From Rahnella victoriana (GTDB lineage: Bacteria; Pseudomonadota; Gammaproteobacteria; Enterobacterales; Enterobacteriaceae): 64,000 bases of DNA. This document shows positions 4,427 to 18,148 of this stretch, one piece after another. Below the pieces are notes generated by a model that searched no databases, had not been told where the DNA came from, and worked only from the letters and a program-made list of their open reading frames with translations. Position 1 is the first letter of the stretch. Every line of letters begins with the position of its first letter. The DNA is taken from positions 186,001 to 250,000 of the forward strand of contig NZ_SJOJ01000004.1 of assembly GCF_004330295.1 (NCBI RefSeq). The letters are read 5' to 3'. The translations under genes were made by a program, and so were the position numbers.

Positions 4427-5596
4427 TTGACTCATCATTCTCCCGTCAAAAACCGCGTGCTGCTGACGCTGGTTTTGCTGCTGTGGCTGGCCGGTTTCGG
4501 CCTGGCCTTTCTCAGCCATGCGCCCAACCGGCTGGTGTCCGGCAAGGGCATTTCGCTGGCGAGTCTGCTGCATGGCTACTCCGCGTTATTACTCATTCCG
4601 GCTTTATTGCTGCTGGCCTGCGCCTTCGTGACGCTGTATGGCCGCCATCATTTGCTGGTGATGTTGCTGGCGGAAATCCTGCTGACGGCGCTGGTCTGGC
4701 TGGCCGGACACGGGGCTGTGCAACTGGCCGGCGGCGATGAGGACAGCATCGCGCGCACCTCGCTCGGCGGCGGCTTCTGGTCGGCTGCCGCGCTGTGTCT
4801 GCTGATTGCCTCCGACGCCATTTCCCGTTTCACCCGCAATCACAGCCTGCGGATTGTGCTCAACGTGCAGATGATCGTGCCGGTGGTGTTGCTGCTGGCG
4901 TACGGTCAGCTTGCCCAGCTTTCGCTGCTCAAAGAATACGACAACCGTTCCGACGTGTTTAACGACGCGCTGTGGCAGCATCTCGGCATTCTGTTTGGCA
5001 CGCTGGTGCCTGCGGTGCTGATCGGTCTGCCCGCCGGATTGTTGTGTCACCGCAAACCGCGCTGGCGCGGACCGGTGCTGTCAGTGCTCAATATTATTCA
5101 GACCGTGCCGTCGATCGCGCTGTTTGGTTTACTGCTCGCGCCGCTGGCGGGACTGGCGAAAGCGGTGCCGTGGCTGGCGGAACACGGTATCAGCGGTATC
5201 GGGCTGGCCCCGGCGATCATTGCGCTGGTGCTCTATTCATTGCTGCCGCTGGTGCGCGGGGTGATTGCCGGGCTGGAGTCGGTGCCGGAAGCGGTGATCG
5301 AATCCGCGCGTGGCATGGGCATGAACCGGGTGCAGATCTTCTTCCGTGTACAGATGCCGATCGCCTTGCCGGTGATCCTGACCGGTATCCGCATCGTGGC
5401 GGTGCAAACCGTCGGTATGGCGATGGTCGCGGCGCTGATCGGCGCAGGCGGACTGGGTGCCATCATGTTCCAGGGCTTGCTCAGCAGCGCGCTGGATCTG
5501 GTGCTGCTCGGTGTGATCCCTGCGGTGCTGATGGCCGTCGTCGTCGACAGCGCTTTTAAATTCGCCGTCTCAATGCTGGAGACCACACGCAGATGA
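4427..5596 (+). CDS. yehY: Osmoprotectant ABC transporter permease YehY
   Basis: A 389-residue inner-membrane permease with about ten hydrophobic segments. The C-terminal half holds the ABC permease coupling region (ESARGMGMNRVQIFF-type EAA loop, near residues 288-305). The length matches E. coli YehY (about 385). The start is a TTG with AGG seven bases before it, because no in-frame ATG precedes the first membrane segment. Its stop overlaps the ATG of yehX by four bases, so translation is probably coupled. Confidence 0.92.
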   Translation: MTHHSPVKNRVLLTLVLLLWLAGFGLAFLSHAPNRLVSGKGISLASLLHGYSALLLIPALLLLACAFVTLYGRHHLLVMLLAEILLTALVWLAGHGAVQLAGGDEDSIARTSLGGGFWSAAALCLLIASDAISRFTRNHSLRIVLNVQMIVPVVLLLAYGQLAQLSLLKEYDNRSDVFNDALWQHLGILFGTLVPAVLIGLPAGLLCHRKPRWRGPVLSVLNIIQTVPSIALFGLLLAPLAGLAKAVPWLAEHGISGIGLAPAIIALVLYSLLPLVRGVIAGLESVPEAVIESARGMGMNRVQIFFRVQMPIALPVILTGIRIVAVQTVGMAMVAALIGAGGLGAIMFQGLLSSALDLVLLGVIPAVLMAVVVDSAFKFAVSMLETTRR

Positions 5597-6537
5597 TTCA
5601 TTTCAAACAGGTAAGCAAACACTTTGCCGGAAAAGCGGTCGTGCGCGACCTGACGCTGGAAATGGCGAAAGGCGAATTCACGGTGCTGATCGGCACGTCC
5701 GGCTCGGGGAAATCCACCACGCTGAAGATGATTAACCGGCTGGTGGAGCACGATCGCGGCGAAATTCTTTTTGCCGGTGAACCGATAGAAAAATTCCGTG
5801 CGCAGGATTTGCGCCGCCGCATGGGCTACGCCATCCAGTCGATTGGCCTGTTCCCGCACTGGACGGTGGAAGAGAACATCGCCACGGTGCCGCAACTGCT
5901 GAAATGGCCGAAAGCCAAAATCCGCGACCGCGTGACCGAGCTGATGAACCTGCTCAATCTTGACCCGAAACAGTTCCGTCAGCGGTATCCGCATCAGCTT
6001 TCCGGCGGGCAACAGCAGCGCGTCGGCGTGGCGCGTGCGCTGGCCTCCGACCCGGAAGTGTTACTGATGGATGAACCCTTCGGTGCGCTGGATCCGGTGA
6101 CCCGCGCAACCTTACAGGAAGAGGTGGCGCGTATTCATAAAATCACTCACCGCACCATTGTGCTGGTGACCCATGATATCGACGAGGCGCTGGCGCTGGC
6201 CGACCGTATCGTCCTGCTTAACGACGGGCAGGTGGTGCAGCAGGGCACGCCGCTGGAACTGCTGACGCAACCGGCGACGCCGTTCGTACGCGATTTCTTC
6301 GGCGGCAGCGACATGGGTATTCGTTTGCTGTCGCTGCGGGAAGTCGGTTCGCTGACGCGGCGCGGTGAGCTGTACACCGGCAGCGGCAAACCGCTGACCG
6401 ACAGCATGAGCCTGAGTCAGGCATTGTCGGCGTTTGTCGCGCAGCAGGTTCAGCATTTGCCGGTGGTGGATGAACAGGGGCAGCCGCTCGGCGTGCTGCA
6501 TTTTGCGGATCTGACCGCGCAAAGGAGCATCGCATGA
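5593..6537 (+). CDS. yehX: Osmoprotectant ABC transporter ATPase YehX
   Basis: A 314-residue ATP-binding subunit that drives the OsmF-YehW-YehY importer. It has Walker [10 protein letters not shown] (about residues 35-43), the signature [15 protein letters not shown], Walker B VLLMDEP and the switch histidine in VTHDIDEAL. After about residue 250 comes a short CBS-like tail ([19 protein letters not shown]). In related betaine importers such a tail senses ionic strength. It overlaps both neighbours by four bases within the operon. Confidence 0.95.
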
Positions 6538-7304
6538 CACGGGTTGTGGTGCGGGTCATCACGGATCCGCTGATCTGGCTGTTTGCTTTATTGCTGGCGC
6601 TGATTTTTGGCATGACCTCGCTCGGCGGCCTGTTCCACTGGCTGTTTCCTGAACTGAGCAGGCCGGTCTATCAGCAGGAAAGTTTCGCCGCGCTGGTGCA
6701 GGCGCATCTGTTGCTGGTCGGGATTTCCAGCCTGATTGCGGTGGTGATTGGCGTGGCGGCAGGCGTCGGGGTCACGCGTCCGGCGGGTAAAGAGTTCCGC
6801 TCACTGGTGGAAACCCTGGTGGCGATGGGGCAGACCTTTCCGCCGGTCGCGGTGCTGGCCGTCGCGGTGCCGGTGATGGGATTCAGTGAAAAACCGGCGA
6901 TTATCGCGCTGGTGCTTTACGGTTTACTGCCGGTGTTGCAGGGAACGATTGCCGGGATCGAATCAGTGCCGCCTTCGGCGCGCGAGATTGCGCAGGGCGT
7001 CGGCATGAGCCGCTGGCAGATGTTGCGGAAAGTGGAAATTCCGCTGGCCGCGCCGGTGATCATTTCCGGCATCCGTACGTCAGTGATCATCAATATCGGC
7101 ACGGCGGCGATCGCCTCGTCGGTCGGCACGTTAAGCCTCGGCTCACCGATTATTATCGGCCTGAGCGGGTTTAACACGGCGTATGTATTGCAGGGCGCGG
7201 TGATTGTTGCACTGCTGGCGATTTGCGTGGATATGCTGTTTGAACGCTGGAGCCTGTGGTTACAACGCTGGCAGCAGCGGTCAGGAGAGGGATCAGTTCG
7301 CTGA
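6534..7304 (+). CDS. yehW: Osmoprotectant ABC transporter permease YehW
   Basis: A 256-residue second permease of the importer, last gene of the operon. It has about six membrane segments and an EAA loop around [17 protein letters not shown]. It pairs with YehY to form the channel. The start overlaps the yehX stop (ATGA). Its 3' end overlaps the last 12 bases of a small convergent membrane-protein gene (7293-7469). Confidence 0.95.
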
Positions 7305-7469
7305 TGCCGCAGGCGGCGCAGGCACCACAGAAGGGGCGTCGTTATCGCTGACCGGTTTAGCGTCGTCCTGGATCACCACGGCATAACCGGCAACCATCAC
7401 GCCACCAATTGCGCCAATTGCCATCAGACCAAACAGCGCGATAAATAATTTTTTGCCAAGCGAATTCAT
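7293..7469 (-). CDS. Small single-span membrane protein, unknown function
   Basis: A 58-residue protein: short basic N-terminus (MNSLGKKL), one hydrophobic span of about 20 residues rich in Gly/Ala, and a Pro/Ala-rich tail ending in PAPPAASAN. The ATG at 7469 has GAGG at seven bases, a good ribosome site. A TTG two codons upstream is less likely. It is convergent with yehW and overlaps it by 12 bases. I do not recognise the family. Confidence 0.65.
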
Positions 7470-7693
7470 GTGCAATACCTCAGAAATTTGAACGACGAAT
7501 TATAAATCGTTTCCTCACCCCTGCAACAGACTATTCATGCTGTGATTACTTTTAGCCGGATGCACAGGTATTTTTTGTCATATACAGAAACTTTTTAGCA
7601 ACATTTTGACGCGATAGCACAGATTTCCTTGCCGGTAATCAGGCCAATAGCGTTAACTGTCTGCCTTCGTTATCACGCTAATAAGTTATTTCT

Positions 7694-8611
7694 ATGATGG
7701 GTTCTGCCGGACGTGCTCTGCTGCCGTTAATCGCCTCACTGTTTGCGTTGTATTTTATCTGGGGTTCTACCTATTTCGTCATCCGCGTGGGGGTAGAAAG
7801 CTGGCCGCCGCTGATGATGGCGGGTCTGCGTTTCTTCGTCGCCGGATGCATTCTGTTTACTTTCCTGCTGTTACGCGGGCATCACGTTCCGACCCTTAAA
7901 CAATGGATGGCCGCCGGTGCGGTGGGCATCTTGCTGCTGTCGGTGGGTAACGGGCTGGTGACGGTTGCCGAACATATGCAGGTGCCGTCTGGCATTGCGG
8001 CAGTGATGGTTGCTACCGTGCCGCTGTTTACCCTGTGCTTCAGCCGCCTGTGGGGCATGCCAAACAGCCGTCTGGAATGGACCGGCGTTGCCATCGGTTT
8101 GTTCGGCATTGTGCTGCTCAATACCGGCAGTAATCTGCAAGGCAACCCGTGGGGCGCGGCGCTGATCCTGCTCGCCTCGCTGAGCTGGGCGTTTGGTTCG
8201 GTATGGAGTTCGCGTCTGCCCCTGCCAAAAGGTCTGATGGCGGGTGCGGCAGAAATGATTATCGCCGGTGTGGTGTTGCTGGTCGCCAGCCGGTTCAGCG
8301 GTGAACACCTGACCGCCGCCCCCTCGCTGAGCGGCTTTCTGGCGCTCGGCTATCTGGTGGTATTCGGCTCGATGATTGCCATCAGCGCCTATATGTTCCT
8401 GCTGAAAACCGTACGTCCCGCCGTCGCCACCAGTTATGCCTATGTGAATCCGATCGTCGCGGTATTGCTCGGCATAGGTTTCGCGGGCGAATCCCTGTCG
8501 CCGGTGGAGTGGGTGGCCTTAGGCGTGATCCTCTGCGCAGTCCTGCTGGTGACGCTGGGGAAATTCGTGTTCGCGCGTAAGAAAACTAAGATCACGGAAG
8601 TGAAGGTTTAA
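7694..8611 (+). CDS. yedA: DMT/EamA-family inner-membrane transporter YedA
   Basis: A 305-residue ten-span drug/metabolite transporter with two EamA repeats. The N-terminal FALYFIWGSTYFVIRVGVES and the middle VTVAEHMQVPSGIAAVMVAT are nearly the same as in E. coli YedA, as is the SYAYVNPIVAVLLG motif in repeat two. Relatives export amino acids or metabolites, and the substrate of YedA is not established. The gene stands alone. A family A repeat hairpin follows it and separates it from the convergent lipid operon. Confidence 0.92.
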   Translation: MMGSAGRALLPLIASLFALYFIWGSTYFVIRVGVESWPPLMMAGLRFFVAGCILFTFLLLRGHHVPTLKQWMAAGAVGILLLSVGNGLVTVAEHMQVPSGIAAVMVATVPLFTLCFSRLWGMPNSRLEWTGVAIGLFGIVLLNTGSNLQGNPWGAALILLASLSWAFGSVWSSRLPLPKGLMAGAAEMIIAGVVLLVASRFSGEHLTAAPSLSGFLALGYLVVFGSMIAISAYMFLLKTVRPAVATSYAYVNPIVAVLLGIGFAGESLSPVEWVALGVILCAVLLVTLGKFVFARKKTKITEVKV

Positions 8612-8651
8612 ACCGCTTCCCTTTCGCAGATGTGACAGCTGGGTTGTTTTA

Positions 8652-8676
8652 CTCCTCCCCTTCGCAGGGGAGGAAG
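8652..8676. repeat. C-rich palindromic repeat, single unit (family A)
   Basis: A hairpin with stem CCTCCCCT/AGGGGAGG around TCGC sits between the convergent yedA and DUF3833 genes. It matches the unit at 471-492 and could act as a bidirectional terminator. Confidence 0.7.
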
Positions 8677-8691
8677 CAGATCGAATTAACC

Positions 8692-9228
8692 TCATTTTTT
8701 CTCAAAGAAGATCGTCACCCGCGCTACTTCCACGCCAAATTTTTTCAGCGACGTGACGTTAAACAGGTGCTGTTCGTCCTGCTGGTAAATCCAGTCATCG
8801 AACGTCAGGCGGTAGGTGCTGTCGCCTGATTTCACGTCCATCACGTATTTCCAGTTGAAGGCATTGCCTGCGGATTGCCCGGTGGCGGTGCCGATAATGT
8901 CACCCGCCGTGCCGGTGTAATGGCCATCCGCCAGTTTACGGATACGCCAGACGCGGGTCTGTTTTTCGCCGTCGTCATAGACAAAGTCTTCATGCAACGT
9001 CAGCGTATCGCCCGCCACGTCACCATGGATTTTGACGGTGAAGCGCCGCGTCTGTTTGTTGCTGTGATCCTGCACCATGCCGTACGCCACGCTGTCACCG
9101 GCAAACCAGCTGAAAATATCCAGCTTCGGTTGTGCCTGCGCGTAATCCTGAACAGTGGCTTTACAGCCAGTCAGTAGCAGCATTGTGCCGACGATCAGCG
9201 TTAAAAAAATCTTTCGCAGAACAGTCAT
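8692..9228 (-). CDS. DUF3833-family lipoprotein
   Basis: A 178-residue lipoprotein: basic N-terminus, hydrophobic stretch and lipobox LLTGC with Cys22, so it should be anchored in the outer or inner membrane facing the periplasm. The rest is the DUF3833 fold, with LDIFSWFAGD and FDDWIYQQDEQHLFN as recognisable stretches. The function is unknown. It is the last gene of the nine-gene operon beginning at 15601, 24 bases after the chalcone isomerase-like gene. Membership in the operon suggests a role in envelope lipid handling. Confidence 0.85.
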   Translation of the reverse strand: MTVLRKIFLTLIVGTMLLLTGCKATVQDYAQAQPKLDIFSWFAGDSVAYGMVQDHSNKQTRRFTVKIHGDVAGDTLTLHEDFVYDDGEKQTRVWRIRKLADGHYTGTAGDIIGTATGQSAGNAFNWKYVMDVKSGDSTYRLTFDDWIYQQDEQHLFNVTSLKKFGVEVARVTIFFEKK

Positions 9229-9252
9229 AAAAACTCCCCCAATAAGATGGTA

Positions 9253-9780
9253 TTAATCGGACGCAGATGCGCCGGTCAGCCTGCTGCGTAAATCAGGATA
9301 TTGCGTGGCGGGCGAGAGCCAGATCGCCAGAAAAGCATCGCGGAATGCCGGGCTGAATGGCTGGCCCACCGGCGTACTCAGCACGCTGTTCGCGGGCTGG
9401 CTGTAAAACTGGCCGCCATTCTCAGTGGCGACAAACACAATTTCGCTGCCGTTGCTGACATCCGGCCAGGTGTTCTGCACCGCGTCCAGCCAGCCATATT
9501 CCTGTGCCTGCGCCAGTAATCCCAGCGCCTGCCATTGTTCTTCGGTGGCTTTGGTCAGCTCCTGATGATCAATGTTGCGCAGATACTCAATCTTCAGTGC
9601 CTGCGGCCATTTCCCGGCCTGATACTTACCGTCGGGTGTCAGCAGTTGCGAGTGATAAACCTCAAACGGCCCCCAGCTCAGGGTCGCGCGCCCGACCTGT
9701 TGCCACGGGCTCCAGGGCGTGGCGGCAAAGGCAGAGCAAGACATCATCAGCCAAAGTGCTGCGAGAAATACGCGCATCAT
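9253..9780 (-). CDS. Chalcone isomerase-like secreted protein
   Basis: A 175-residue protein with a signal peptide (MMRVFLAALWLMMSCSAFA|ATP). The body fits the bacterial chalcone isomerase-like family: GRATLSWGPFEVYHSQLLTPDG near the N-terminus, ALKIEYLRNI, and a C-terminal FRDAFLAIWLSP. Bacterial members are not flavonoid enzymes, and some plant relatives bind fatty acids. A lipid-binding role fits the neighbours but is inference. The ATG overlaps the TGA of the DUF2878 gene by one base. A much longer upstream frame exists, but only this start gives the signal peptide. Confidence 0.8.
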   Translation of the reverse strand: MMRVFLAALWLMMSCSAFAATPWSPWQQVGRATLSWGPFEVYHSQLLTPDGKYQAGKWPQALKIEYLRNIDHQELTKATEEQWQALGLLAQAQEYGWLDAVQNTWPDVSNGSEIVFVATENGGQFYSQPANSVLSTPVGQPFSPAFRDAFLAIWLSPATQYPDLRSRLTGASASD

Positions 9781-10280
9781 CAGGTTTTCCGCACTGTATG
9801 GTTGCTTAGCAAAACCGGCAGGCTTATCAGCGGTAAAAATATCGCCCAGCCCGCCGCCAGTAAGAGCCAGACATACACCGGTGCGGCGAGAAGTTGCATA
9901 GCACCAAGCTGCATACCGAGGTAATAGGCCAGCGGGCCGCTGACCGCGCCGATGAGAGGAAGCCAGTACCACGTCAACCGGATAGTGCCCAGTAACCACA
10001 GCCACCATGCGCTGAAACCCAGCCATAATGCCATCATCCACGGCGGTACGGCGGCAGAATCAGTAAATTCAAACAGACCTGAAATACACCACAGCGAATC
10101 CATCATGATGCCAAGTGTACAGGCGGTCGCGACCCACAAACGTCGTCCGGAGGGTGTAAACGCCAGCATCAGAAAACTGCTGATCAGCAGAAAAATAATA
10201 AAACGGTCGCGCCCCCAGACGGCCAGTGTCCACCAGACGTCAAAGCCCAGTGTCAGCAGCCAGAAGCGCAGCGATTTCAT
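9780..10280 (-). CDS. DUF2878 membrane protein
   Basis: A 166-residue protein made almost entirely of hydrophobic segments (about five spans), starting MKSLRFWLLTLGFDVWW. It matches the DUF2878 family, of unknown function. The ATG overlaps the stop of the methyltransferase gene (ATGA), so the two are probably translationally coupled. The family usually travels with Cfa-like methyltransferase and DUF1365 genes, from my recall of gene neighbourhoods. Confidence 0.8.
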   Translation of the reverse strand: MKSLRFWLLTLGFDVWWTLAVWGRDRFIIFLLISSFLMLAFTPSGRRLWVATACTLGIMMDSLWCISGLFEFTDSAAVPPWMMALWLGFSAWWLWLLGTIRLTWYWLPLIGAVSGPLAYYLGMQLGAMQLLAAPVYVWLLLAAGWAIFLPLISLPVLLSNHTVRKT

Positions 10281-11509
10281 CCGCGCCGCTCGGCGACCAG
10301 TTGCACGGTGCTGATGGTGCGGGCGCGGAAACCGGCCTCGCAGTAGCACAGATAAAACAGCCACAGGCGACGGAAATATTCGTCCTGCACGCCGTCAGTC
10401 TGCGCATTCCAGTAGTGCTGCACCCGTTCGCGCCATTCATGCAGGGTGCGGGCGTAATCGGAACCGATATCGAACAGGTCACGCACCACCAGACTGGTGC
10501 AGCGGGTCATGGCGTCGTTCATCGCGGTGATCGAGGGCAGAAAGCCGCCGGGGAACACGTAGCACTGAATAAAATCGACGTTACGGCTGTAGGCGGCGTA
10601 TCGCTGATCGGCGATGGTGATCGCCTGAATCGCCATGCGCCCCTGCGGTTTCAGCAGCGCGTTGCAGCGTTTAAAAAAGGTGGAGAGGTAGCGTTTACCC
10701 ACCGCTTCGATCATCTCGATGGACACCAGTTTATCGAACTGGCCTTTCAGCGCGCGGTAGTCTTCAAACAGCACCGTCACGCGGTCACTCAGCCCGGCTT
10801 TTTCGATCCGCTCACAGGCATAGCGATATTGCTCGCGGGAAATGGTGGTGGTGGTCACCTGACAGCCGTATTCACGCGCGGCAAATTCGGCCATCGCGCC
10901 CCAGCCGGTGCCGATTTCCAGCAGATGGTCGCCCGCGTGTAACTGCAACTGTTCACACAAACGGCGCATTTTGGCTTCCTGCGCCTGCTCCAGCGTCATC
11001 TGCGGTTCCTGATACCAGGCCGAGGAATACAGCATCTTCTCATCGAGAAAACCCTGATAGAAATCGTTGCCCAGATCGTAATGCGCTGAGATATTTTTCC
11101 GCGCCTGCGCCGGGCTGTTACGGCGGAAAAAATGAATAATTTTTTTGGCGGGTGTGCTGAGCCAGCTGAGGCGCGCACTGATTTTATCCACCAGCTTCAT
11201 ATTCTCGGCCAGCAGCTGTAAAACCGTGGTCAGATCGGGCGTGGTCCAGTCGCCATCAATAAAGCTTTCCCCCGCCGCCACGCTGCCGCCCAGTAAGACA
11301 CGCCGGTAGGCGCGCAGGTGGCGGACGTCAATTTCGCCCTGCAACAGAGCGGTCGGATCGCCAAAGAATATCGCCTGCTCACCGGGTTCACGCAGTGTCA
11401 GACCGGCCCCTTTGAGCTGCTTCAGCACGCCAAGGATCATGGCGCGTGCCGCTTTGCTGCGCCTGTTATTCGCCGCGGCACGGGCGAGCTGCATTTCAGG
11501 TTGGCTCAT
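10277..11509 (-). CDS. Cyclopropane fatty acid synthase-type SAM methyltransferase
   Basis: A 410-residue cytosolic enzyme that should transfer a one-carbon unit from S-adenosylmethionine to unsaturated acyl chains of phospholipids. The SAM site is LLEIGTGWGAMA at about residues 196-207. NISAHYDLGNDFYQGFLD (139-156) and the VSIEMIEAVGKRYL and FIQCYVFPGGFLPS stretches are Cfa signatures. It differs from the housekeeping Cfa, being an operon member with DUF1365 and an FAD oxidase. In Rhodobacter a related methyltransferase with an FAD enzyme has been linked to furan fatty acids (from memory). The product here could be a cyclopropane, methylated or furan acyl chain. Confidence 0.9.
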   Translation of the reverse strand: MSQPEMQLARAAANNRRSKAARAMILGVLKQLKGAGLTLREPGEQAIFFGDPTALLQGEIDVRHLRAYRRVLLGGSVAAGESFIDGDWTTPDLTTVLQLLAENMKLVDKISARLSWLSTPAKKIIHFFRRNSPAQARKNISAHYDLGNDFYQGFLDEKMLYSSAWYQEPQMTLEQAQEAKMRRLCEQLQLHAGDHLLEIGTGWGAMAEFAAREYGCQVTTTTISREQYRYACERIEKAGLSDRVTVLFEDYRALKGQFDKLVSIEMIEAVGKRYLSTFFKRCNALLKPQGRMAIQAITIADQRYAAYSRNVDFIQCYVFPGGFLPSITAMNDAMTRCTSLVVRDLFDIGSDYARTLHEWRERVQHYWNAQTDGVQDEYFRRLWLFYLCYCEAGFRARTISTVQLVAERRG

Positions 11510-11511
11510 GG

Positions 11512-12228
11512 TCAGTCCTTATCAACGGGAGGATGAGAATAAACAGGTGCCCGTTTCAGCCACAGTTTCAGCGCCTGCCAGTAGATCGTCAGCGCGGTTT
11601 TTGCGGTCATGACAGGCAGCCGCCACAATTGCTGACGCAGCGCCTCGCGGGTCAGCGGGCGGGCTGTCAGTGAAAGGGCGGCATCGAATTCCCGTTCTTT
11701 GCGGTGATTTTCGATCGTGATGTGTAACTGCTTTCCCGGGGGCGTCAGCCGCCAGTGATAGACCATGTCCATCGGATTAAAGGGCGACACATGAAAGGCT
11801 TTCGGCACAGGTTGCGAGCCGTCGGGGAGCACGGCGTAGGTGTGGCGTTCATTCCAGGGGGTGTTGCGCACTTCGGCCAGCATCCAGCGCAAAATACCCT
11901 GTTGATCATAAAGATAGTAGAAGTTAACCGGGTTGAAATAGCAGCCGAAATAGCACAGCTGGCATAACAACATCACCCGCCCGTCGGGGCGTTCGCCGGT
12001 CAGTTCGGCGATCCGTGCCTGCGCTTTGGTTTTGATGTCGCCACCGCCGAGATAATCTTTGCGGCGAAAACTGGCCGGGGAGAATTTTTCCAGCCGGATC
12101 CCCCGCGCGGGCAGCTGTTCCAGCTCATCAAGATCAATCAGCGGCATGAAAATATCGTAATCGAAACGGTGCTCAACCGGCGTAAAGCGGCGATGTCGTA
12201 CCGTGCCGACATACAACTGGCTGTTCAT
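11512..12228 (-). CDS. DUF1365 domain protein
   Basis: A 238-residue protein with the DUF1365 hallmarks: GTVRHRRFTPVEHRFDYDIFM at the N-terminus, LLCQLCYFGCYFNPVNFYYL in the middle (around 98-117) and an AEVRNTPWNERHTY stretch. The function is unknown. The family is found almost always beside Cfa-like methyltransferases and FAD amine oxidases. It overlaps the FAD gene by four bases (ATGA) and is two bases from the methyltransferase gene, placing it inside the operon. Confidence 0.88.
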   Translation of the reverse strand: MNSQLYVGTVRHRRFTPVEHRFDYDIFMPLIDLDELEQLPARGIRLEKFSPASFRRKDYLGGGDIKTKAQARIAELTGERPDGRVMLLCQLCYFGCYFNPVNFYYLYDQQGILRWMLAEVRNTPWNERHTYAVLPDGSQPVPKAFHVSPFNPMDMVYHWRLTPPGKQLHITIENHRKEREFDAALSLTARPLTREALRQQLWRLPVMTAKTALTIYWQALKLWLKRAPVYSHPPVDKD

Positions 12229-13583
12229 GACGCCTCCCGCTTTTCCTGCTCATGCTGCAACTGCACACTGAAAAGCTGCTGATTAAGCTGTTCCACCACG
12301 TCACGCGCGCTGTTGACGCCATCTTCGTGAAAGCCGTTGTACCAGTACGCGCCGCAGAACCAGGTGCGGTGATGACCGTTGATGCGGTAGCGTTCCTGTT
12401 GTGCATGATGGCTGGCCAGATTGAGCACCGGGTGCCTGTAGGTGGTGCGGAACAGGATTTTGCTTTCGTCGACCGGCGTCAGCGGATTGAGCGACACACA
12501 GAACGTCTGCGGCGCATCCAGTCCCTGCAAAATATTCATGTTATAGGTCACGCTGGCGCGGCGGCGGTGCGACGGATTGCTGTCGCGCATATCCGCACGC
12601 GCCGCCAGATGCAGCGAATTCGGCAACTGATAATTCCAGCTCGCCCAGGCGCGTTTTTCCCGTGGCAGCAGATGGGTGTCGGTATGCAAAATCACGTCGT
12701 TACTCTGATACGGCAGCGCACCGAGAATGCTCCGTTCGTCGGCGGTGGCGGTGTCACCGAGGATCGCCAGCGCCTGATCGGAATGGCAGGCGAAAACAAT
12801 CTGATCAAAATGCTCTTCGCCACGCGCCGAATGCAACGTCACGCCGCATGGCGTCCGCACCACCTGACTGACCGGCGTAGCGGTCAGCAGCCTGACGCGG
12901 GACGGCAGTTTTTCCTGCATCCGGCGGATATATTCCCGCGAACCGCCGGGCACCACCATCCACTGCGGGCGGTTACTCACCTCCAGCAGCCCGTGATTGT
13001 TGAAGAAACGCAGAAACATCGACAGCGGGAAGTTCGCCATATCGCTCAGCGACGAAGACCAGATCGCCGCGCCCATCGGCAGCACGTAATGCAGGGCGAA
13101 GAACGGCGTAAAACCGTTTTGATCGAGCAGATCGGCCAGCGTATCTTCGTCGTTATGCGGGTTAAGCAGGCGCGCTTTGCACAGTTTGTTAAAGCGCAGG
13201 ATCTCGAAAATAAACCGCCAGAACCCCGGCCTGAACAGATTACGGCGCTGAGCAAACAGGCTGTTGAGCGAGTGGCCGTTGTATTCCAGTTTGCTGGCCG
13301 GATTGCGCACGGAAAAACTCATTTCCGTCGGCTGGCCTTCGATGCCCAGCTCTTTGAGCAGGGCAATAAAATGCGGGTAGGTGCGTGAGTTATAAACAAT
13401 AAAACCGGTATCGATGGCGTACTCTTTGCCGTCGGAAATCACATCCTGCGTGGCGGTGTGTCCGCCTAAGGTGGCCGAGGCTTCGAACACCGTGATCTCG
13501 CAGTCGGGCTGGCTTTTTGCCAGCAACCACGCGCAGCTCAGCCCTGAAATTCCACTCCCGACGATGGCCACTTTTGTTGTCAT
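12225..13583 (-). CDS. FAD/NAD-binding amine oxidase-type flavoprotein
   Basis: A 452-residue flavoprotein. The dinucleotide motif VAIVGSGISGLSCAWLL opens the protein (residues 5-21), followed by the second FAD strand ITVFEASATLGGHT. The rest matches the flavin amine oxidase/desaturase-like branch that accompanies Cfa-like enzymes. The likely role is oxidation or desaturation of an acyl chain next to the site modified by the methyltransferase, inferred from neighbours and from the Rhodobacter furan fatty acid precedent. The gene is one base from the SDR gene and overlaps DUF1365. Confidence 0.88.
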   Translation of the reverse strand: MTTKVAIVGSGISGLSCAWLLAKSQPDCEITVFEASATLGGHTATQDVISDGKEYAIDTGFIVYNSRTYPHFIALLKELGIEGQPTEMSFSVRNPASKLEYNGHSLNSLFAQRRNLFRPGFWRFIFEILRFNKLCKARLLNPHNDEDTLADLLDQNGFTPFFALHYVLPMGAAIWSSSLSDMANFPLSMFLRFFNNHGLLEVSNRPQWMVVPGGSREYIRRMQEKLPSRVRLLTATPVSQVVRTPCGVTLHSARGEEHFDQIVFACHSDQALAILGDTATADERSILGALPYQSNDVILHTDTHLLPREKRAWASWNYQLPNSLHLAARADMRDSNPSHRRRASVTYNMNILQGLDAPQTFCVSLNPLTPVDESKILFRTTYRHPVLNLASHHAQQERYRINGHHRTWFCGAYWYNGFHEDGVNSARDVVEQLNQQLFSVQLQHEQEKREAS

Positions 13584-13584
13584 T

Positions 13585-14301
13585 TTATTTCACCATTTTC
13601 CGGCATAACCATTTTTGCACACTGACGGGCAGCCACGAAGCCACCTTGAGAAAACCGACAAAGAGCGGGGGAAAGGCAATTTCGCTGGCACCCTGCGCCA
13701 GTTTTTTCCGGATGTGTTTTGATGCCTGTGCGGCGGTTACTATCATTGGCATCGCGAAATCATTGTGCGAGGTGAGCGGCGTTTCGACAAATCCCGGCTG
13801 GATCAGTGAAACGTGGATCTGACGTTTTGCCAGATCCACCGCCAGTGAACGGGCAAAAAAGGCCAGTGCGGCTTTGGATGCGCCGTACGCTTCACTGCGT
13901 GAAAACGGCAGCAGCCAGGCGACGGAACCGACCAGCGCCACACGGCTGCCGGGCGCCAGGCCGGGGAGCAGGGCATCGAGGCAATTGACCGGGCCGTTGA
14001 AATTGGTGTTCATCACCCGCGCGACTTTTTCGGCATCGACGACACCGTTGTCGAGATACTCGCAGGTGCCTGCACAGAGGATCACGATATCAGCCTGTAC
14101 TCCGCCCAGCGCCTCGCGGGTGGCGGCTAAATCGGTGATATCAAAAGATAACGGCACGATCAGCGGGCTGGCTGCGGCCACCGCCGTGAGCTTTTCGCCA
14201 TCGCGCCCGCAGGCCATGACTTCCCAGCCTTCAGCGGCATAATCCAGCGCCAGTTGCTTTCCGATGCCTGAACTGGCACCGGTGACCAGCACACGGCGCA
14301 T
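13585..14301 (-). CDS. Short-chain dehydrogenase/reductase
   Basis: A 238-residue classical SDR. The cofactor motif TGASSGIG is at residues 7-14, the NAG-equivalent is CAGT, and the catalytic pair is YGASK with a serine in GSVAW upstream. A basic residue set after the second strand (CGRDG) suggests NADP(H). Its ATG overlaps the preceding TAA by one base. As an operon member it probably reduces or oxidises a lipid intermediate. The substrate is unknown. Confidence 0.9.
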   Translation of the reverse strand: MRRVLVTGASSGIGKQLALDYAAEGWEVMACGRDGEKLTAVAAASPLIVPLSFDITDLAATREALGGVQADIVILCAGTCEYLDNGVVDAEKVARVMNTNFNGPVNCLDALLPGLAPGSRVALVGSVAWLLPFSRSEAYGASKAALAFFARSLAVDLAKRQIHVSLIQPGFVETPLTSHNDFAMPMIVTAAQASKHIRKKLAQGASEIAFPPLFVGFLKVASWLPVSVQKWLCRKMVK

Positions 14302-14753
14302 TATTTCAACCTGGCTTTAACAGCGCGCACGGCACCGCCGAGCACCGGCACATGCTCATACAACATGGCCCCGAGATCGTAATAATCGCGCTGATACACG
14401 ATGCGGTTTTCATTCAGCCGCAAATGGCTCGCGCCATTCAGAAACGTTGCCTGACCTTTTCTCAGCGCCGGATGGGAAAACTCCATCCGCCAGAACAGCG
14501 AGGCTTCGTCTCCCTGCACCAGCGGCGGCTGGATCTCAAAACGGCAGTAGTTGACCTTTTTGAGTAACTGCTCGAAATAGCGTTCAAGCGCATCCACCCC
14601 GTCGTAATGCGAAACGGGGTCGATAAACACGATATGCGGATGATAGATACGGGAAAGCTGGGTCAGCCGGCTCATGTCGAGCTGGGCATAAAATTCGCAC
14701 ACACGGGTCAGCACATCCGCCGGTATGGCGGGTTCAGGGAAAGGTTTAATCAT
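14301..14753 (-). CDS. NTF2-like (SnoaL-type) protein
   Basis: A 150-residue single-domain protein of the nuclear transport factor 2-like fold. YHPHIVFIDPVSHYDGVDAL and FWRMEFSHPAL are typical strands and helix of the cone-shaped pocket. Such proteins are small isomerases, hydratases or binding proteins. No catalytic residues can be assigned with confidence. The start overlaps the stop of the MerR gene (TAATG) and its stop overlaps the SDR start in the same way. Confidence 0.8.
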   Translation of the reverse strand: MIKPFPEPAIPADVLTRVCEFYAQLDMSRLTQLSRIYHPHIVFIDPVSHYDGVDALERYFEQLLKKVNYCRFEIQPPLVQGDEASLFWRMEFSHPALRKGQATFLNGASHLRLNENRIVYQRDYYDLGAMLYEHVPVLGGAVRAVKARLK

Positions 14754-15601
14754 TATTTTTTCCTTTCATGACGGTCAGACACGATATGCAAAAGAGTGTG
14801 GGGATCTTCTTCCGCGATGTCTTCGCCAGCCTCTGCGCTGTCGGACTCTTCCGCGCCCAGTAACCGCGCGGTGCTGCCCAGAAGAATGATCGACAATCCC
14901 TGTTCCACCCACATGAGCAGGCGCTGGCGCTGAACCTGCGTCAGCTTGCCTTCAGACCACAGCAGGATTTGCGAATCGCTGAGGCTTTCAAGATACGGAT
15001 CGCTGAGCGGCACCGGCAATATCTCAACCTGCATGCCTTCCTCACAGCGGACAATGGCTTCCAGCCACAACTCGGTGCTGTCGGTGTGTCCCCAGGCCAC
15101 CAGCGTGGCGGGCGGTCCCGGTCGTTTGCGGGCGGCATTCATGCACATGACGGCGTGTTCGATGATCAGGCCGTCAAGCTGGCTGCGTAACATCAGCAGC
15201 CGCGAATCGCCCGAACTCAGCCGCGCACGCAGCGGACGAAGAACATTATTCACAAACGCCGCCGCCGGATATTCGCGCCCGAATTCCATGATCAGCTGAC
15301 GGACTTTTTGCGGGCGACCGTCCTGCAGGGCGTTCAGCAGCTGATGCTCTGACTGCGACCAGCCGCCCGGCAGCGCGTCGACTTTACCTTCCAGCAGGGA
15401 TTTGACCTGACCGACCGGAATGCCCCGGTTGATCCAGCCCAGAATGGTGCGGATGGTATCGAGATCGTCATCATTAAACAGACGGTGACCGCCTTCCGTG
15501 CGCTGGGGTTTCAGCAACCCGTAACGCCGCTGCCAGGCGCGCAGGGTGACCGGATTGATTCCACAAATACGGGCGACTTCGCCGATGCTGTAAAGAGACA
15601 T
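14753..15601 (-). CDS. MerR-family regulator, MlrA-like, first gene of lipid operon
   Basis: A 282-residue regulator. The N-terminal MerR HTH (residues 1-70) begins MSLYSIGEVARICGINPVTL and continues with RAWQRRYGLLKPQRTEGGHR, almost the same as E. coli MlrA. The C-terminal 200 residues follow the helical and Rossmann-like layout of the cobalamin-type MerR proteins (CarH/LitR/MlrA group). The classic B12-ligating DXHXXG motif is not seen, as in MlrA. The tail is acidic (SAEAGEDIAEEDPH). The start at 15601 matches MlrA. An in-frame ATG at 15622 is less likely. It probably regulates its own operon through the TGTACA repeats just upstream. Confidence 0.85.
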   Translation of the reverse strand: MSLYSIGEVARICGINPVTLRAWQRRYGLLKPQRTEGGHRLFNDDDLDTIRTILGWINRGIPVGQVKSLLEGKVDALPGGWSQSEHQLLNALQDGRPQKVRQLIMEFGREYPAAAFVNNVLRPLRARLSSGDSRLLMLRSQLDGLIIEHAVMCMNAARKRPGPPATLVAWGHTDSTELWLEAIVRCEEGMQVEILPVPLSDPYLESLSDSQILLWSEGKLTQVQRQRLLMWVEQGLSIILLGSTARLLGAEESDSAEAGEDIAEEDPHTLLHIVSDRHERKK

Positions 15602-15660
15602 AGTTGAATCCAAAATATTCATAACACTTATGAGATAACTCTAGCGCCAGATCGCAAAGC

Positions 15661-15689
15661 TGTACAACTTTATTATTTTTGTACAACTT
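15661..15689. promoter_or_regulatory. Direct TGTACAACTT repeats, probable MlrA-like operator
   Basis: TGTACAACTT occurs at 15661-15670 and again at 15680-15689. A degenerate copy (TTGTGCAATT) is at 15721-15730. E. coli MlrA and CarH/LitR-type proteins recognise TGTACA-containing sites, so these are likely targets of the adjacent regulator. They lie in the divergent promoter region between the lipid operon and the XRE-cupin gene, so both directions may respond. Confidence 0.55.
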
Positions 15690-15785
15690 AACAAAAACTT
15701 TTCGCTTACATCATTTTAACTTGTGCAATTCCCATATAAGAGATAATTTCCCGATATTGAGATTTAACGCATGAAGGGGAAGATG

Positions 15786-16355
15786 ATGGAAGAAGGGCAG
15801 GAGAGTCAGGATCTGCGGCTGGCGGAAAGGCTGGCAGAATTGCGGGTAAGCCGGGGCTGGTCGCTGGAACAACTGGCGCAGCTGACCGGCATCAGCCGCG
15901 CCACGCTCTCGCGGGTGGAGCGGGCAGAAACCAGCCCGACGGCATCGTTGCTTGGCAAACTCAGTGCGGCGTACGGGCTGACCACATCGCGCCTGCTGAT
16001 GGCGCTGGAAGACAATCCGCCGGAGCTGATCCGTGTCTCACAACAGCCGGTGTGGCATGACCGCGAAACCGGCTTCGAGCGCCGTTCGGTTTCCGCTCCC
16101 GCCCCCGGTTTTCGCGCTGAACTGATTTCCGGCGTCCTGAAAGCCGGTGCCACCATCACCTACGACGCACCGCCGGTAGAGGGCCTTGAACAGCATATCT
16201 GGATGCTGGATGGTGTGCTGGAATTCACCCTTAACGGGCGCGGCTACCGGCTGGAACCGGGCGACTGCCTGCGTTTTCATCTTCATGGTACCTCCTCCTT
16301 CCACGTGCCCGGCCCGCAAGATGCCCGTTACGCCGTCGTCATTTCACGTCCTTAA
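15786..16355 (+). CDS. XRE-family regulator with cupin sensor domain
   Basis: A 189-residue regulator: HTH of the Cro/C1 type at about residues 8-62 (RLAELRVSRGWSLEQLAQLT, then ISRATLSRVERAETSPT) and a C-terminal cupin beta-barrel (LEQHIWMLDGVLEF, YRLEPGDCLRF). Such proteins usually control a neighbouring metabolic or transport gene. GGGG six bases before the ATG at 15786 decides the start. ATGs at 15771 and 15783 are alternatives. It is followed after 25 bases by two acetyltransferase genes, probably in one transcript. Confidence 0.88.
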   Translation: MEEGQESQDLRLAERLAELRVSRGWSLEQLAQLTGISRATLSRVERAETSPTASLLGKLSAAYGLTTSRLLMALEDNPPELIRVSQQPVWHDRETGFERRSVSAPAPGFRAELISGVLKAGATITYDAPPVEGLEQHIWMLDGVLEFTLNGRGYRLEPGDCLRFHLHGTSSFHVPGPQDARYAVVISRP

Positions 16356-16380
16356 TCTCTGAGAAAAAAGGTTTATTCCT

Positions 16381-16917
16381 ATGCAAAACAGCAATGAAGT
16401 GGTGATCAGTGAAGTGCAGGGCGGCGTACTGCCAGCGGAAGATCTGGACGCGCTGGCCGAAACGCTGATGCAGTCGGTGGCGCTTGGCGCGAGTATCGGA
16501 TTCATCCTGCCTTTTGGTTTTGTGCAGGCGCAGGCGTTCTGGCAAAAGCTGTTACCGGCGTTTGAGCGTGGCGAAAAACGGCTGCTGGTGGCGCGGTATG
16601 AAGGGAAAATTATCGGCACCGTACAGCTGGTGGTCGATCAGCCCGCCAACGGCATTCATCGCGGTGATGTGGTGAAACTGATGGTGCATCCCGACGGACG
16701 CCGTAAAGGGATCGCCCGCAAACTGATGGACGCCGTGGAAACGCTGGCACGTCAAGAGGGCAAAACCTTGCTGGTGCTGGACACCGTCACCGGCAGCCCG
16801 GCGCAAACGCTGTACCACGATCAGGGCTTCACGCTGAGCGGCACAATCCCGCACTATGCGATGTCAACGGAAGGCATGCTGGAGTCCACCAGTGTGATGT
16901 ATAAGGTGCTGGTGTGA
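16381..16917 (+). CDS. GNAT-family N-acetyltransferase
   Basis: A 178-residue acetyl-CoA-dependent acetyltransferase. The acetyl-CoA loop is VHPDGRRKGIARKLMDAVE (about residues 101-119), preceded by the VKLM strand and followed by the LVLDTVTGSPAQTLYHDQGF motif. The acceptor is unknown. It lies between the XRE-cupin regulator and a second GNAT gene, whose GTG start overlaps its stop (GTGA), so the two are co-translated. Confidence 0.88.
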   Translation: MQNSNEVVISEVQGGVLPAEDLDALAETLMQSVALGASIGFILPFGFVQAQAFWQKLLPAFERGEKRLLVARYEGKIIGTVQLVVDQPANGIHRGDVVKLMVHPDGRRKGIARKLMDAVETLARQEGKTLLVLDTVTGSPAQTLYHDQGFTLSGTIPHYAMSTEGMLESTSVMYKVLV

Positions 16918-17387
16918 ACTGGCGGATTGCGCCGGAGGATGTCGGTACGCCGGATGCCGCACAATTGCTGGATGCGCTTTCGCAGACGCTGGCGGCCATC
17001 ACTGGCGACAGCGGGCGTTCATCGTTTTCCGTGGATGATATGCAGGAGGCCGGGGCGTGTTTTGTGATCGCCCGTGACAGCTGCGAAAATGCCGTCGGAT
17101 GCGGCGCAATCCGGCCGCTGCAACATGACACTTGTGAGCTTAAAAGGATGTACGCAACGCCCGGACATCCGGGACTGGGCAGTGCGATTCTGGCATTTCT
17201 CGAAGCGCAGGCCGCGGCCTCAGGCTATCAGGCGTTATGGCTGGAAACCCGTCGGGTAAACCTGAACGCGGTAGGTTTCTATCGCAAGCGGGGTTATACG
17301 GAAATCGATAATTACGGCAGATATCGCGGCAGACCGGAAGCCGTGTGTCTGGGGAAAGTGCTTTTTTGCGTTTCCCCCGAAGACTAA
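16914..17387 (+). CDS. GNAT-family N-acetyltransferase
   Basis: A 157-residue second acetyltransferase. ELKRMYATPGHPGLGSAILA is the acetyl-CoA binding strand and loop, with a shortened R/Q-x-x-G-x-G/A motif, and ALWLETRRVNLNAVGFYRKRGY is motif B. It starts with GTG overlapping the stop of the first GNAT gene. Its 3' end overlaps the convergent molybdoenzyme gene by four bases. Confidence 0.85.
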   Translation: MNWRIAPEDVGTPDAAQLLDALSQTLAAITGDSGRSSFSVDDMQEAGACFVIARDSCENAVGCGAIRPLQHDTCELKRMYATPGHPGLGSAILAFLEAQAAASGYQALWLETRRVNLNAVGFYRKRGYTEIDNYGRYRGRPEAVCLGKVLFCVSPED

Positions 17388-18148
17388 ATCCCGCTAAACC
17401 AGTTATAGCCCTGATCTTCCCAGTAGCCGCCCGGGTTTTCGTTGGTGACGAAAATCGCGCCGATGTGTTTGGCGTTTTTGAAGCCCAGCTTGGTGGGCAT
17501 TCTCAGGCGTAACGGGTAACCGAAATCCGGCGGTAACGGTTTGCCGCCGAAATCCAGCGCCAGAATGGTTTGCGGATGCAGCGCCGTCGCCATATCGATG
17601 CTGGAATAATAGCGGTCGTCACATTTGAATCCGACGTATTTAGCGGACAGATCTGCGCCGACGTGCTGTAAAAACGTTTTCAGCGGCACGCCTTTCCACT
17701 GACCAATTGCGCTCCAGCCTTCAATGCAAATCAGACGGGTGATCTGACTTTCCTGCGGCAGTCGCTGTAACTGTTCCAGCGTCCACGAGGCTTTCTTTTG
17801 CACCAGACCGGAGACTTCAAGCCGGTAATTGGGAATGTCGATTTCGGGTACGTTGTATTCCGGATAATAAGCATTGAAGCGAAACGGCGTGGTGATCTGG
17901 TCAGCGCGATAGGTTTGCGCCAGTTTTTGCCCGCTGAACAGCCAGCCCTGCACGCGGTCATTCCAGCGCGACATCGCCCACAGCACTTTGTCGACCTGAT
18001 CGCCATCCTGCAAATTACAGCCGGTCAGCATCGACACGGCCCCTAATGTCAGCCCGGAGCGCAGCAATAAGCGGCGCTGGATATTGACCAGTTGCTTGCG
18101 CTGGTCCGGTTCAATAATGATTTTTGGCCGCGGTGATTTATCATTCAT
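17384..18148 (-). CDS. Molybdopterin-dependent oxidoreductase, sulfite oxidase/MsrP superfamily
   Basis: A 254-residue exported molybdoenzyme. Cys141 in RLICIEGWSAIGQWKGVPL is the expected molybdenum ligand of the sulfite oxidase fold. The N-terminus carries twin arginines (QRRLLLRSG, R25-R26), a hydrophobic stretch and a lipobox-like LTGC at 41-44, so it may be a Tat-exported lipoprotein. It is shorter than MsrP (about 330) and closer to the compact YuiH-like branch. The substrate is unknown; sulfoxides are one candidate. The start overlaps the cytochrome b gene by eight bases. Confidence 0.85.
   Translation of the reverse strand: MNDKSPRPKIIIEPDQRKQLVNIQRRLLLRSGLTLGAVSMLTGCNLQDGDQVDKVLWAMSRWNDRVQGWLFSGQKLAQTYRADQITTPFRFNAYYPEYNVPEIDIPNYRLEVSGLVQKKASWTLEQLQRLPQESQITRLICIEGWSAIGQWKGVPLKTFLQHVGADLSAKYVGFKCDDRYYSSIDMATALHPQTILALDFGGKPLPPDFGYPLRLRMPTKLGFKNAKHIGAIFVTNENPGGYWEDQGYNWFSGI

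Follow-up and report, generated by a model that had tools for sequence, protein, structure and literature searches.

An MlrA/BluR-family regulator heads a conserved nine-gene operon in Rahnella victoriana that probably makes furan fatty acids and may belong to a blue-light-type regulon

The 64,000-nucleotide stretch of Rahnella victoriana DNA considered here (contig NZ_SJOJ01000004.1, positions 186,001 to 250,000; hereafter the window) contains nine consecutive minus-strand genes that code for an MlrA/BluR-family MerR regulator followed by eight structural proteins. These nine genes form one real, conserved operon. An original prediction, made from the sequence alone, had described their order and spacing, and both were confirmed by the open reading frames and the measured gaps: along the operon from the MerR gene, these are -1, -1, 1, -4, 2, -4, -1, and 24 bases. 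Pfam profiles also back eight of the nine gene names given there. The ninth label, chalcone isomerase, is weak by sequence (Chalcone_3 E = 0.0042, under the cut-off) and is backed by the predicted fold. The features of the operon, in window positions, are the following:

15661..15685, minus: operator TGTACA-N13-TGTACA, a direct repeat with a 19-bp period; the second half overlaps the -35 hexamer
15638..15667, minus: predicted promoter TTGTAC (15662-15667), 18-bp spacer, TAGAGT (15638-15643), read from the sequence
14753..15601, minus: MlrA/BluR-family MerR regulator, 282 aa (MlrA_helical 4.8e-26, MlrA_C 1.3e-24, Pfam)
14301..14753, minus: NTF2/SnoaL-like protein (SnoaL_2 3.2e-14)
13585..14301, minus: short-chain dehydrogenase (SDR; adh_short 7.3e-36; TGxxxGxG and YxxxK motifs)
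12225..13583, minus: FAD-dependent oxidoreductase, candidate UfaD-type acyl desaturase (Amino_oxidase 3e-22; GxGxxG; DUF1365 neighbour as in ufaD-ufaO, PMC7380195)
11512..12228, minus: DUF1365 protein, candidate UfaO-type oxygenase (DUF1365 1.7e-81; UfaO is a characterised DUF1365 protein, PMC7380195)
10277..11509, minus: Cfa-type methyltransferase, UfaM candidate (CMAS 1.1e-84; C139/H240/H266 of Cfa replaced by S/A/Q)
9780..10280, minus: DUF2878 protein, hydrophobic by eye, probable membrane protein (DUF2878 3e-24)
9253..9780, minus: chalcone-isomerase-fold (CHI) protein with a signal-like N-terminus, lipid-binding candidate (predicted fold)
8692..9228, minus: DUF3833 lipoprotein with lipobox LTGC, predicted beta barrel (DUF3833 2e-63)

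The start of the regulator was set at 15601 and not at an alternative in-frame ATG at 15622, because the alignments of E. coli MlrA and BluR begin with residue 1 at 15601 and because 15622 lies only about 10 bases from the transcription start predicted by eye. The DUF1365 protein is 94-97% identical to that of eight named Rahnella.

DUF1365 is present in 26 of 246 genomes of the family, 166 of 295 of the order, and 52 of 200 of the phylum. The original prediction had also called for a survey of gene neighbourhoods. We ran it on 138 order-level loci (L052-L189), which comprise the best 80 of 350 relatives and 58 further regions; all were chosen through their DUF1365 match, and some represent one genome counted twice. 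The gene set recurs. The five core genes (NTF2-SDR-FAD-DUF1365-Cfa) stand together in 134/138 loci and all eight structural genes are present in 78/138, so that the grouping goes beyond chance. Taken singly, SDR occurs in 135/138 and NTF2 in 134/138 of these loci. Adjacency of FAD, DUF1365, and Cfa extends to relatives across the phylum.

We sorted 92 regulators into types by protein similarity alone. Type A comprises Rahnella, Ewingella, Hafnia, Rouxiella, some Yersinia, Serratia oryzae, Pantoea sp. 1.19, and Erwinia persicina. Here the MerR gene heads the operon, and neither RudS (DUF523-DUF1722) nor a photolyase lies beside it. In type B (Klebsiella, Citrobacter, Enterobacter, and others), MerR comes first and RudS last in many loci, a layout also visible in the own annotation of a Klebsiella record. 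Several Enterobacter loci have no MerR gene, and Pectobacterium mostly carries the five core genes alone. Five Pectobacterium loci (L128, L130, L132, L133, and L136) lack MerR and the envelope genes and retain NTF2-SDR-FAD-DUF1365-Cfa; just downstream lies a gene whose start, by eye, looks SodC-like. Ewingella americana E4 has two operon copies: L118, with a truncated regulator (81 aa), a truncated SDR (67 aa), and no NTF2 match, and L124, with no match for DUF2878, CHI, and DUF3833. The type A locus L120 gives no match for DUF2878 and CHI. A complete type B operon including RudS is found on a linear record of 550 kb (NZ_CP129856.1, 509400-522098; L277) deposited as a Klebsiella pneumoniae plasmid, which may be a piece of chromosome.

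Outside these families, the same genes keep different company. An extracytoplasmic function (ECF) sigma factor and ChrR lie within reach in 17 of 33 loci of other families (L077-L109), and in 11/33 ECF, ChrR, RudS, and photolyase (PHR) all accompany the lipid genes. The order in L080, L092, L103, and L105, for example, is c105-ECF-ChrR-RudS-PHR-NTF2-SDR-FAD-DUF1365-Cfa-DUF2878-CHI-DUF3833. Enterovibrio, Grimontia, and Salinivibrio place a MerR gene between RudS and the photolyase, with no ECF/ChrR pair within the stretch read. The ChrR/sigma-E motif TGATC-N16-18-CGTA occurs 61 times in the 33 loci versus once for the reversed control. It lies 10-55 bases ahead of the ECF gene in 13/33 loci and, in a position that we judged convincing, 38-71 bases ahead of NTF2 in 4/33 (L077, L078, L079, and L085). 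Motifs 126-229 bases ahead of NTF2 in 13 loci were left uncounted; by their position, most coincide with the end of the photolyase gene, and conservation of the protein there may account for the motif. These neighbourhoods bear out the kinship with light and singlet-oxygen clusters that had been proposed at the outset. The clusters of Vibrio, Aeromonas, and marine relatives share the eight structural genes, many with RudS and photolyase, whereas the Rahnella operon itself holds no ECF sigma, ChrR, RudS, or PHR gene. By eye, no ECF sigma or ChrR gene was found among the open reading frames of window positions 6500-18500, a genome-wide search not having been made.

Which chemistry may this operon encode? 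In the furan fatty acid (Ufa) pathway, UfaM methylates cis-vaccenoyl chains, UfaD desaturates them, and UfaO, a DUF1365 protein, introduces oxygen derived from O2 (PMC7380195). R. palustris RPA2569-2571 are described as sufficient for furan fatty acid, and three genes also suffice in R. sphaeroides (PMC7380195). Halomonas carries ufaD, ufaO, and ufaM in a row, and its UfaM affords 11-methyloctadec-12-enoate when produced in E. coli (PMC12089945). An FAD enzyme, a DUF1365 protein, and a Cfa-type methyltransferase are likewise present and adjacent in the window. Unlike the Ufa systems of these three organisms, the Rahnella operon adds NTF2, SDR, DUF2878, chalcone-isomerase-fold, and DUF3833 proteins, and its regulator belongs to the MlrA/BluR family and not to the sigma-E/ChrR type. 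The earlier proposal of a modified acyl chain and of kinship with furan fatty acid genes is upheld, with UfaM/UfaD/UfaO-type as the closer name.

A separate canonical Cfa is encoded elsewhere in the Rahnella genome. We compared it with the operon Cfa-type proteins of more than 380 aa (135 of 137 order-level sequences). C139, H240, and H266 follow what we take to be the Cfa numbering, and these residues presumably form the bicarbonate site. H240 is replaced by A and H266 by Q in all 135 proteins. The C139 position is occupied by S in 127, by C in 5, and by A in 3, and E239 is kept in 135/135. Among the phylum loci, the H266 position is Q in 31/39 and H in 8/39 Cfa-type proteins. In loci with two Cfa-type genes, the gene of lower similarity is the one with H, and in L210 and L222 no Cfa-type gene other than the H type was found. 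The operon protein also scores under the curated cut-off of every Cfa-type model that it matches (best 281.5 vs 400 bits). Judged by these residues and scores, the methyltransferase is distinct from canonical Cfa. Loss of the ring-closure base machinery would fit an enzyme that leaves a methyl-branched alkene as its product. The operon encodes a pathway of a known kind under an unusual regulator, and it probably converts ordinary membrane fatty acids to protective furan fatty acids.

In an alignment of 136 DUF1365 proteins, H12, D58, E119, H129, and Y131 are near-invariant; these residues might form the metal site of an oxygenase. Among apparent internal stop codons in DUF1365 of genus g178, the TAA in L041 proved to be the normal gene end, which the profile match overruns.

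The last two proteins of the operon point to the envelope. The lipobox LTGC of the DUF3833 protein and the signal-like N-terminus of the chalcone-isomerase-like protein support the exported partners suggested by the original prediction. The model of the DUF3833 lipoprotein is a ten-stranded barrel (predicted local distance difference test score, pLDDT, 95.7), whose best solved matches are BFA1 (5yvf, 1.1e-4), the fatty-acid-binding-like Ycf58 (3bdr, 1.3e-4), and other barrels, all with modest scores. The AlphaFold model of the chalcone-isomerase-like protein (pLDDT 93.1) has a signal-like N-terminal helix. Its best Foldseek matches are chalcone isomerases (5wks, E 1.3e-6), and it also matches the fatty-acid-binding AtFAP3 (4dol, 1.1e-4). 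Both predicted folds fit envelope lipid binding, without proving it.

The regulator is 44% identical to E. coli MlrA and 41% to BluR over the full length. A profile search of this assembly, which is rated 100% complete, found no other MlrA/BluR-family protein; the same search recovers the MlrA family in E. coli. Two identities can be ruled out. A score of 224.5 bits against the MlrA equivalog NF011617 (curated cut-off 417) excludes a true MlrA, and a motif scan found no B12-binding DxHxxG motif in the window protein, which excludes a B12-binding LitR. The DxHxxG pattern does occur in 2/91 regulators of relatives (L125 and L126), where we took it as chance.

The operator ahead of the regulator gene is the sole TGTACA-N11..14-TGTACA in the 5.3-Mb genome. 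The TGTACA pair follows the regulator type: it is found in 34/35 type A loci (the window included), in 0/42 type B loci, and in 0/15 Vibrionaceae-like loci. Six type A genomes are in the set twice, which leaves 28/29 distinct loci with the operator. In 15 non-redundant type A promoters the spacer varies and the halves are constant, the halves having been required to be exact by the search. The operator resembles the MlrA site at csgD, TTGTACA-N12-TGCACAA (PMC3509220), and the PplR1/PmlR2 consensus, T(G/A)TACA-N12-TGTA(C/T)A (PMC9758184), but is one base longer between the halves (N13 vs N12). Two other upstream regions may be recorded here. Type B loci carry a different box, GTAGTATA, shortly ahead of the MerR start in 36/42 cases (for example L143, L152, L171, and L175), and the region upstream of E. 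coli bluR (L271) contains three TGTACA at -81, -61, and -39, a triplet that suggests autoregulation of bluR.

We then turned to the question of which signal the regulator may receive. One BLUF protein was found in the genome. Its identity to E. coli BluF is 55% over the whole length, and it is encoded beside ycgZ-type genes: the first is 54% identical to YcgZ over 54 residues, and others are 32% identical to YmgA and 35% to AriR. A full EAL signature reads ExLxR. E. coli BluF has EAIVQ and the Rahnella protein EANLC, so that both signatures look degenerate. Degenerate BluF proteins are described as usually encoded next to a BluR-type gene (PMC3509220), yet no bluR lies beside the Rahnella bluF in the 9 kb read (L274). 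The regulator of the lipid operon is the only candidate partner found for this BluF. Compared with the BluR-BluF-ycgZ-ymgABC system of E. coli, Rahnella thus has BluF, relatives of ycgZ, ymgA, and ariR, and an upstream TGTACA-type site, but no bluR adjacent to bluF, and its only family regulator found heads the lipid operon.

Candidate sites for this regulator also exist away from the operon. A genome scan for TGTACA-N12/13-TRTAYA returned six places, and the reversed control returned none. Four of them precede the operon, rudS-phr, a ycgZ-ymgA-ariR-like set, and a separate ariR-like gene. The photolyase and RudS genes form a pair unlinked to the operon, and their promoter contains TGTACA-N12-TGTATA, an exact fit to the PplR1 consensus. 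The ycgZ-type site lies 82 bases ahead of the first gene of its set, and ycgZ-ymgABC is a known BluR target in E. coli (PMC3509220). The rudS, ycgZ, and ariR-like sites have ACCTGTACA-N12/13-TGTATAACTT in common. The rudS-phr site is found in 8/10 type A genomes (seven with N12, and G190 with N14). Edaphovirga (G048), with a photolyase 78% identical to that of Rahnella and a type B regulator, is without the site, and G001 gave no photolyase match. As the genomes are related, these counts are not independent. The original statement that there is no photolyase, sigma-E/ChrR, or LitR is true for the operon; for the genome it has to be amended by the photolyase-RudS pair with its similar operator, ECF sigma and ChrR not having been searched genome-wide. 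The suggestion of a curli-type regulation finds no support: the regulator falls below the MlrA cut-off, it is the sole family member found, and the four sites lie at the operon, rudS-phr, ycgZ-ymg, and the ariR-like gene (csgD was not searched for). Stress regulation, also suggested, can be narrowed to a probable control of the blue-light/BluF type.

Several published observations tie relatives of these genes to light. The V. cholerae gene VC1122, described as cfa, goes up in blue light (PMC5241685), and VC1123 (DUF2878) is listed in a MerR-type PhrR regulon by RegPrecise (PMC12971978). The corresponding cluster of Aeromonas salmonicida and a ChrR gene go down with riboflavin (PMC10012899). 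RudS is a tRNA 4-thiouridine (s4U) desulfidase that is frequent in light operons (PMC11417400). A Cfa-DUF3833 transcript of Erwinia amylovora was cloned in a light study on pear (PMC8465259), from which we derive no light effect on this transcript. The closest parallel is provided by the class II LitR proteins of Pseudomonas. In vitro, PmlR2 acts as a repressor at TGTACA-N12-TGTACA, and a blue-light LOV protein releases it; in P. putida, PhrB and UfaM are among the light genes that depend on PplR (PMC9758184). The PplR1/PmlR2 and Rahnella systems have in common a MerR protein without a full B12 site and counterparts of the light genes PhrB and UfaM. The Pseudomonas operator over the -35 region is of the TGTACA-N12-TGTACA type; of the Rahnella sites, the one at rudS-phr has this N12 spacing and the one at the operon, also over the -35 region, has N13. 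The Pseudomonas partner is a short LOV protein, and the Rahnella photolyase is unlinked.

Based on these findings, we consider it rather probable that the operon is an autoregulated unit for photo-oxidative stress and remodels membrane phospholipids as part of a BluF-released, blue-light-type regulon. In the dark, the MerR regulator, which has no B12 motif, would bind TGTACA-N13-TGTACA over the -35 hexamer and repress its own operon. It would also repress rudS-phr (tRNA s4U desulfidase and photolyase) and ycgZ-ymgA-ariR in trans, and blue light would release it through the BLUF-EAL protein BluF. For binding, light response, and contact with BluF, the argument runs from the observed operators, the sole family regulator, and the presence of BluF. 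The Cfa-type enzyme (UfaM role) may then methylate cis-vaccenoyl phospholipid, and the FAD enzyme (UfaD role) may desaturate the methylated chain. Insertion of an O2-derived oxygen by the DUF1365 protein (UfaO role) would afford a methylated furan fatty acid that scavenges reactive oxygen. The SDR and NTF2-like proteins may process intermediates or oxidised furans. Finally, the DUF2878 protein (membrane), the chalcone-isomerase-fold protein (periplasm), and the DUF3833 lipoprotein (barrel) may bind or move modified acyl chains. The proposed chemistry, product, and transport derive from the genes, their order, the residue changes, and the predicted folds.

A number of observations weigh against parts of this proposal. 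One concerns RSP1089, a gene of the R. sphaeroides operon that we take to be Cfa-like. It is dispensable for furan synthesis (PMC7380195), so that gene position alone is no proof of the UfaM role. The likeness to the characterised UfaD, UfaM, and UfaO is set by family, adjacency, and residues. One type A regulator, that of L120, is without the operator: beginning around base -45 relative to the regulator gene, directly above the -10 region, unrelated sequence takes its place. BluF is not a universal partner, because Yersinia has the operon and is reported to be without BluF in a 2012 study (PMC3509220). The rudS-phr site also occurs in 1/20 other genomes with a photolyase match (G086, type B, N13). 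Among type A genomes the site is degenerate in G119, and the Yersinia genome G176 has ybgA without the site; G146, in which no DUF1365 was found, shares the degenerate site of G119. A hand estimate from base composition gives about 3.5 loose sites genome-wide. The number of six is therefore unremarkable, and it is the location of the sites that carries the evidence. Of these locations, the ariR-like site lies 256 bases from its gene, and two places look accidental and were not taken as targets: C26:231666, inside a dipeptidase open reading frame, and C37:164615, between hmp and glyA (genes named by eye).

The operon could also run the same furan-type pathway in answer to another cue, such as stationary phase, cyclic di-GMP or an EAL/GGDEF partner, or products of singlet oxygen, in the manner of MlrA and with light uninvolved. 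E. coli MlrA is indeed an activator of csgD that works with YciR and YdaM (PMC3509220), the Rahnella protein is similarly close to MlrA (44%) and BluR (41%), and the case of Yersinia points the same way. Against this stand the only BLUF protein found, with its 55% identity to E. coli BluF and the operon regulator as the sole family protein found for it, and the sites at the photolyase-RudS and ycgZ-ymg-type promoters. We regard this alternative as unlikely, if one to be taken seriously.

We assign a similarly low probability to a second alternative, in which the product is a different oxygenated or rearranged acyl chain, the SDR and NTF2-like proteins are essential, and furan is at most an intermediate. 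The near-constant presence of SDR (135/138) and NTF2 (134/138) favours this idea, as neither is among the three genes reported to suffice for furan formation (PMC7380195). On the other hand, FAD, DUF1365, and Cfa stay together across the phylum, and three genes are enough in R. sphaeroides (PMC7380195).

Could the regulator control its own operon only, with the rudS-phr and ycgZ-ymg sites being accidental or those of another protein? Only the operon has the perfect double site, the spacing at rudS is N12 and not N13, the trans sites carry a TGTATA half, and the roughly 3.5 loose sites expected by hand estimate would allow for coincidence. This reading appears distinctly improbable in view of the shared pattern of the three trans sites, the retention of the rudS site in 8/10 type A genomes, and the fact that no second MlrA-family protein was found.

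Finally, that the Cfa-type enzyme is a second cyclopropane synthase, with a cyclopropane or another simple acyl modification as product, would agree with the CMAS and Cfa model matches and with the reading of VC1122 in the V. cholerae study (PMC5241685), but is very improbable given a best Cfa-model score of 281.5 against a cut-off of 400 bits, the A and Q in 135/135 proteins in place of two histidines of the genome's true Cfa, and the presence of that true Cfa elsewhere in the genome.

The proposal of a BluF-released furan fatty acid regulon gains a further aspect from the position of the operon. The neighbouring genes, all outside the operon, are:

7694..8611, plus: EamA transporter, convergent neighbour (EamA 4e-36)
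6534..7304, plus: yehW, which marks the E. coli mlrA position (71% to E. coli YehW over 6630-7247)
5593..6537, plus: yehX, synteny marker (65% to E. coli YehX over 5593-6522)
5009..5593, plus: yehY (matched part), synteny marker (59% to part of E. coli YehY)

E. coli has the order mlrA, yohO, and then convergent yehW, yehX, and yehY. Read in the same direction, the window has MerR, the eight lipid genes, the EamA gene, yehW, yehX, and yehY. The operon occupies the position of E. coli mlrA beside yehWXY. The Rahnella regulator thus shares family and yehWXY-side position with MlrA of E. coli and Salmonella, but E. coli mlrA has no lipid genes behind it, and the Rahnella protein scores under the MlrA cut-off. 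A convergent yehW lies behind the operon in 21/34 fetched type A loci (18/28 distinct) and in 0/104 other loci. Some of the 13 type A loci without yehW (L111, L113, L118, L120, L127/L067, L137/L064, L138, L139/L059, L140, and L141) end soon past the operon (for example L111, L120, and L127/L067).

Rooted on the Vibrionaceae-type set, a tree of 43 regulators groups MlrA and BluR of E. coli with operon regulators of Pantoea, Erwinia, and G119 (99/95), and the type B regulators form one clade (100/100). An approximately unbiased (AU) test rejected a topology in which the 16 type A regulators form a group that excludes MlrA and BluR of E. coli (p 0.0002) and allowed MlrA and BluR as sisters (p 0.137). 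This test was run after the tree had been seen; some branches are long, only two free-standing regulators are in the set, and the order of the deep groups is weak. Since outgroup, type B, and type A regulators are all attached to lipid genes, the ancestral state was most simply an attached one. In 5,426 E. coli genomes, blastn with 3.6 kb of a Citrobacter copy found nothing at the sensitivity of this search.

With slightly less than even confidence, we propose that MlrA and BluR of E. coli descend from the autoregulator of a photoprotection operon for furan fatty acids and have become orphans. After loss of the eight lipid genes from between mlrA and yehW, the regulator would have been recruited for curli and, as BluR, for ycgZ-ymgABC. 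Rahnella would keep the ancestral blue-light regulon of one regulator and one BluF, covering furan lipids, photolyase, tRNA s4U removal, and Ymg/AriR. A published proposal instead derives BluR from a duplication of MlrA (PMC3509220). Among the matches listed from the open-licence PMC literature, none connects MlrA or the regulator BluR to photolyase or to furan fatty acids, and those on light operons of Enterobacteriaceae leave furan fatty acid unmentioned. What appears to be new, as far as genome comparison can tell, is the sole regulator with its conserved operator, its connection through trans sites to photolyase-RudS and ycgZ-ymg, a BluF that has no BluR beside it, and the placing of MlrA with the operon regulators, both by position and in the tree. 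The operon thereby joins three stories, those of bacterial furan fatty acids, of LitR-type light regulons, and of the enteric biofilm regulators BluF, BluR, and MlrA. With one regulator, one BluF, and four candidate target promoters, Rahnella offers a simple test system.

Upstream of the operon, at window positions 17384-18782 on the minus strand, lie genes for a molybdopterin-type oxidoreductase-like protein and a cytochrome b561-like partner, both recognised by eye.

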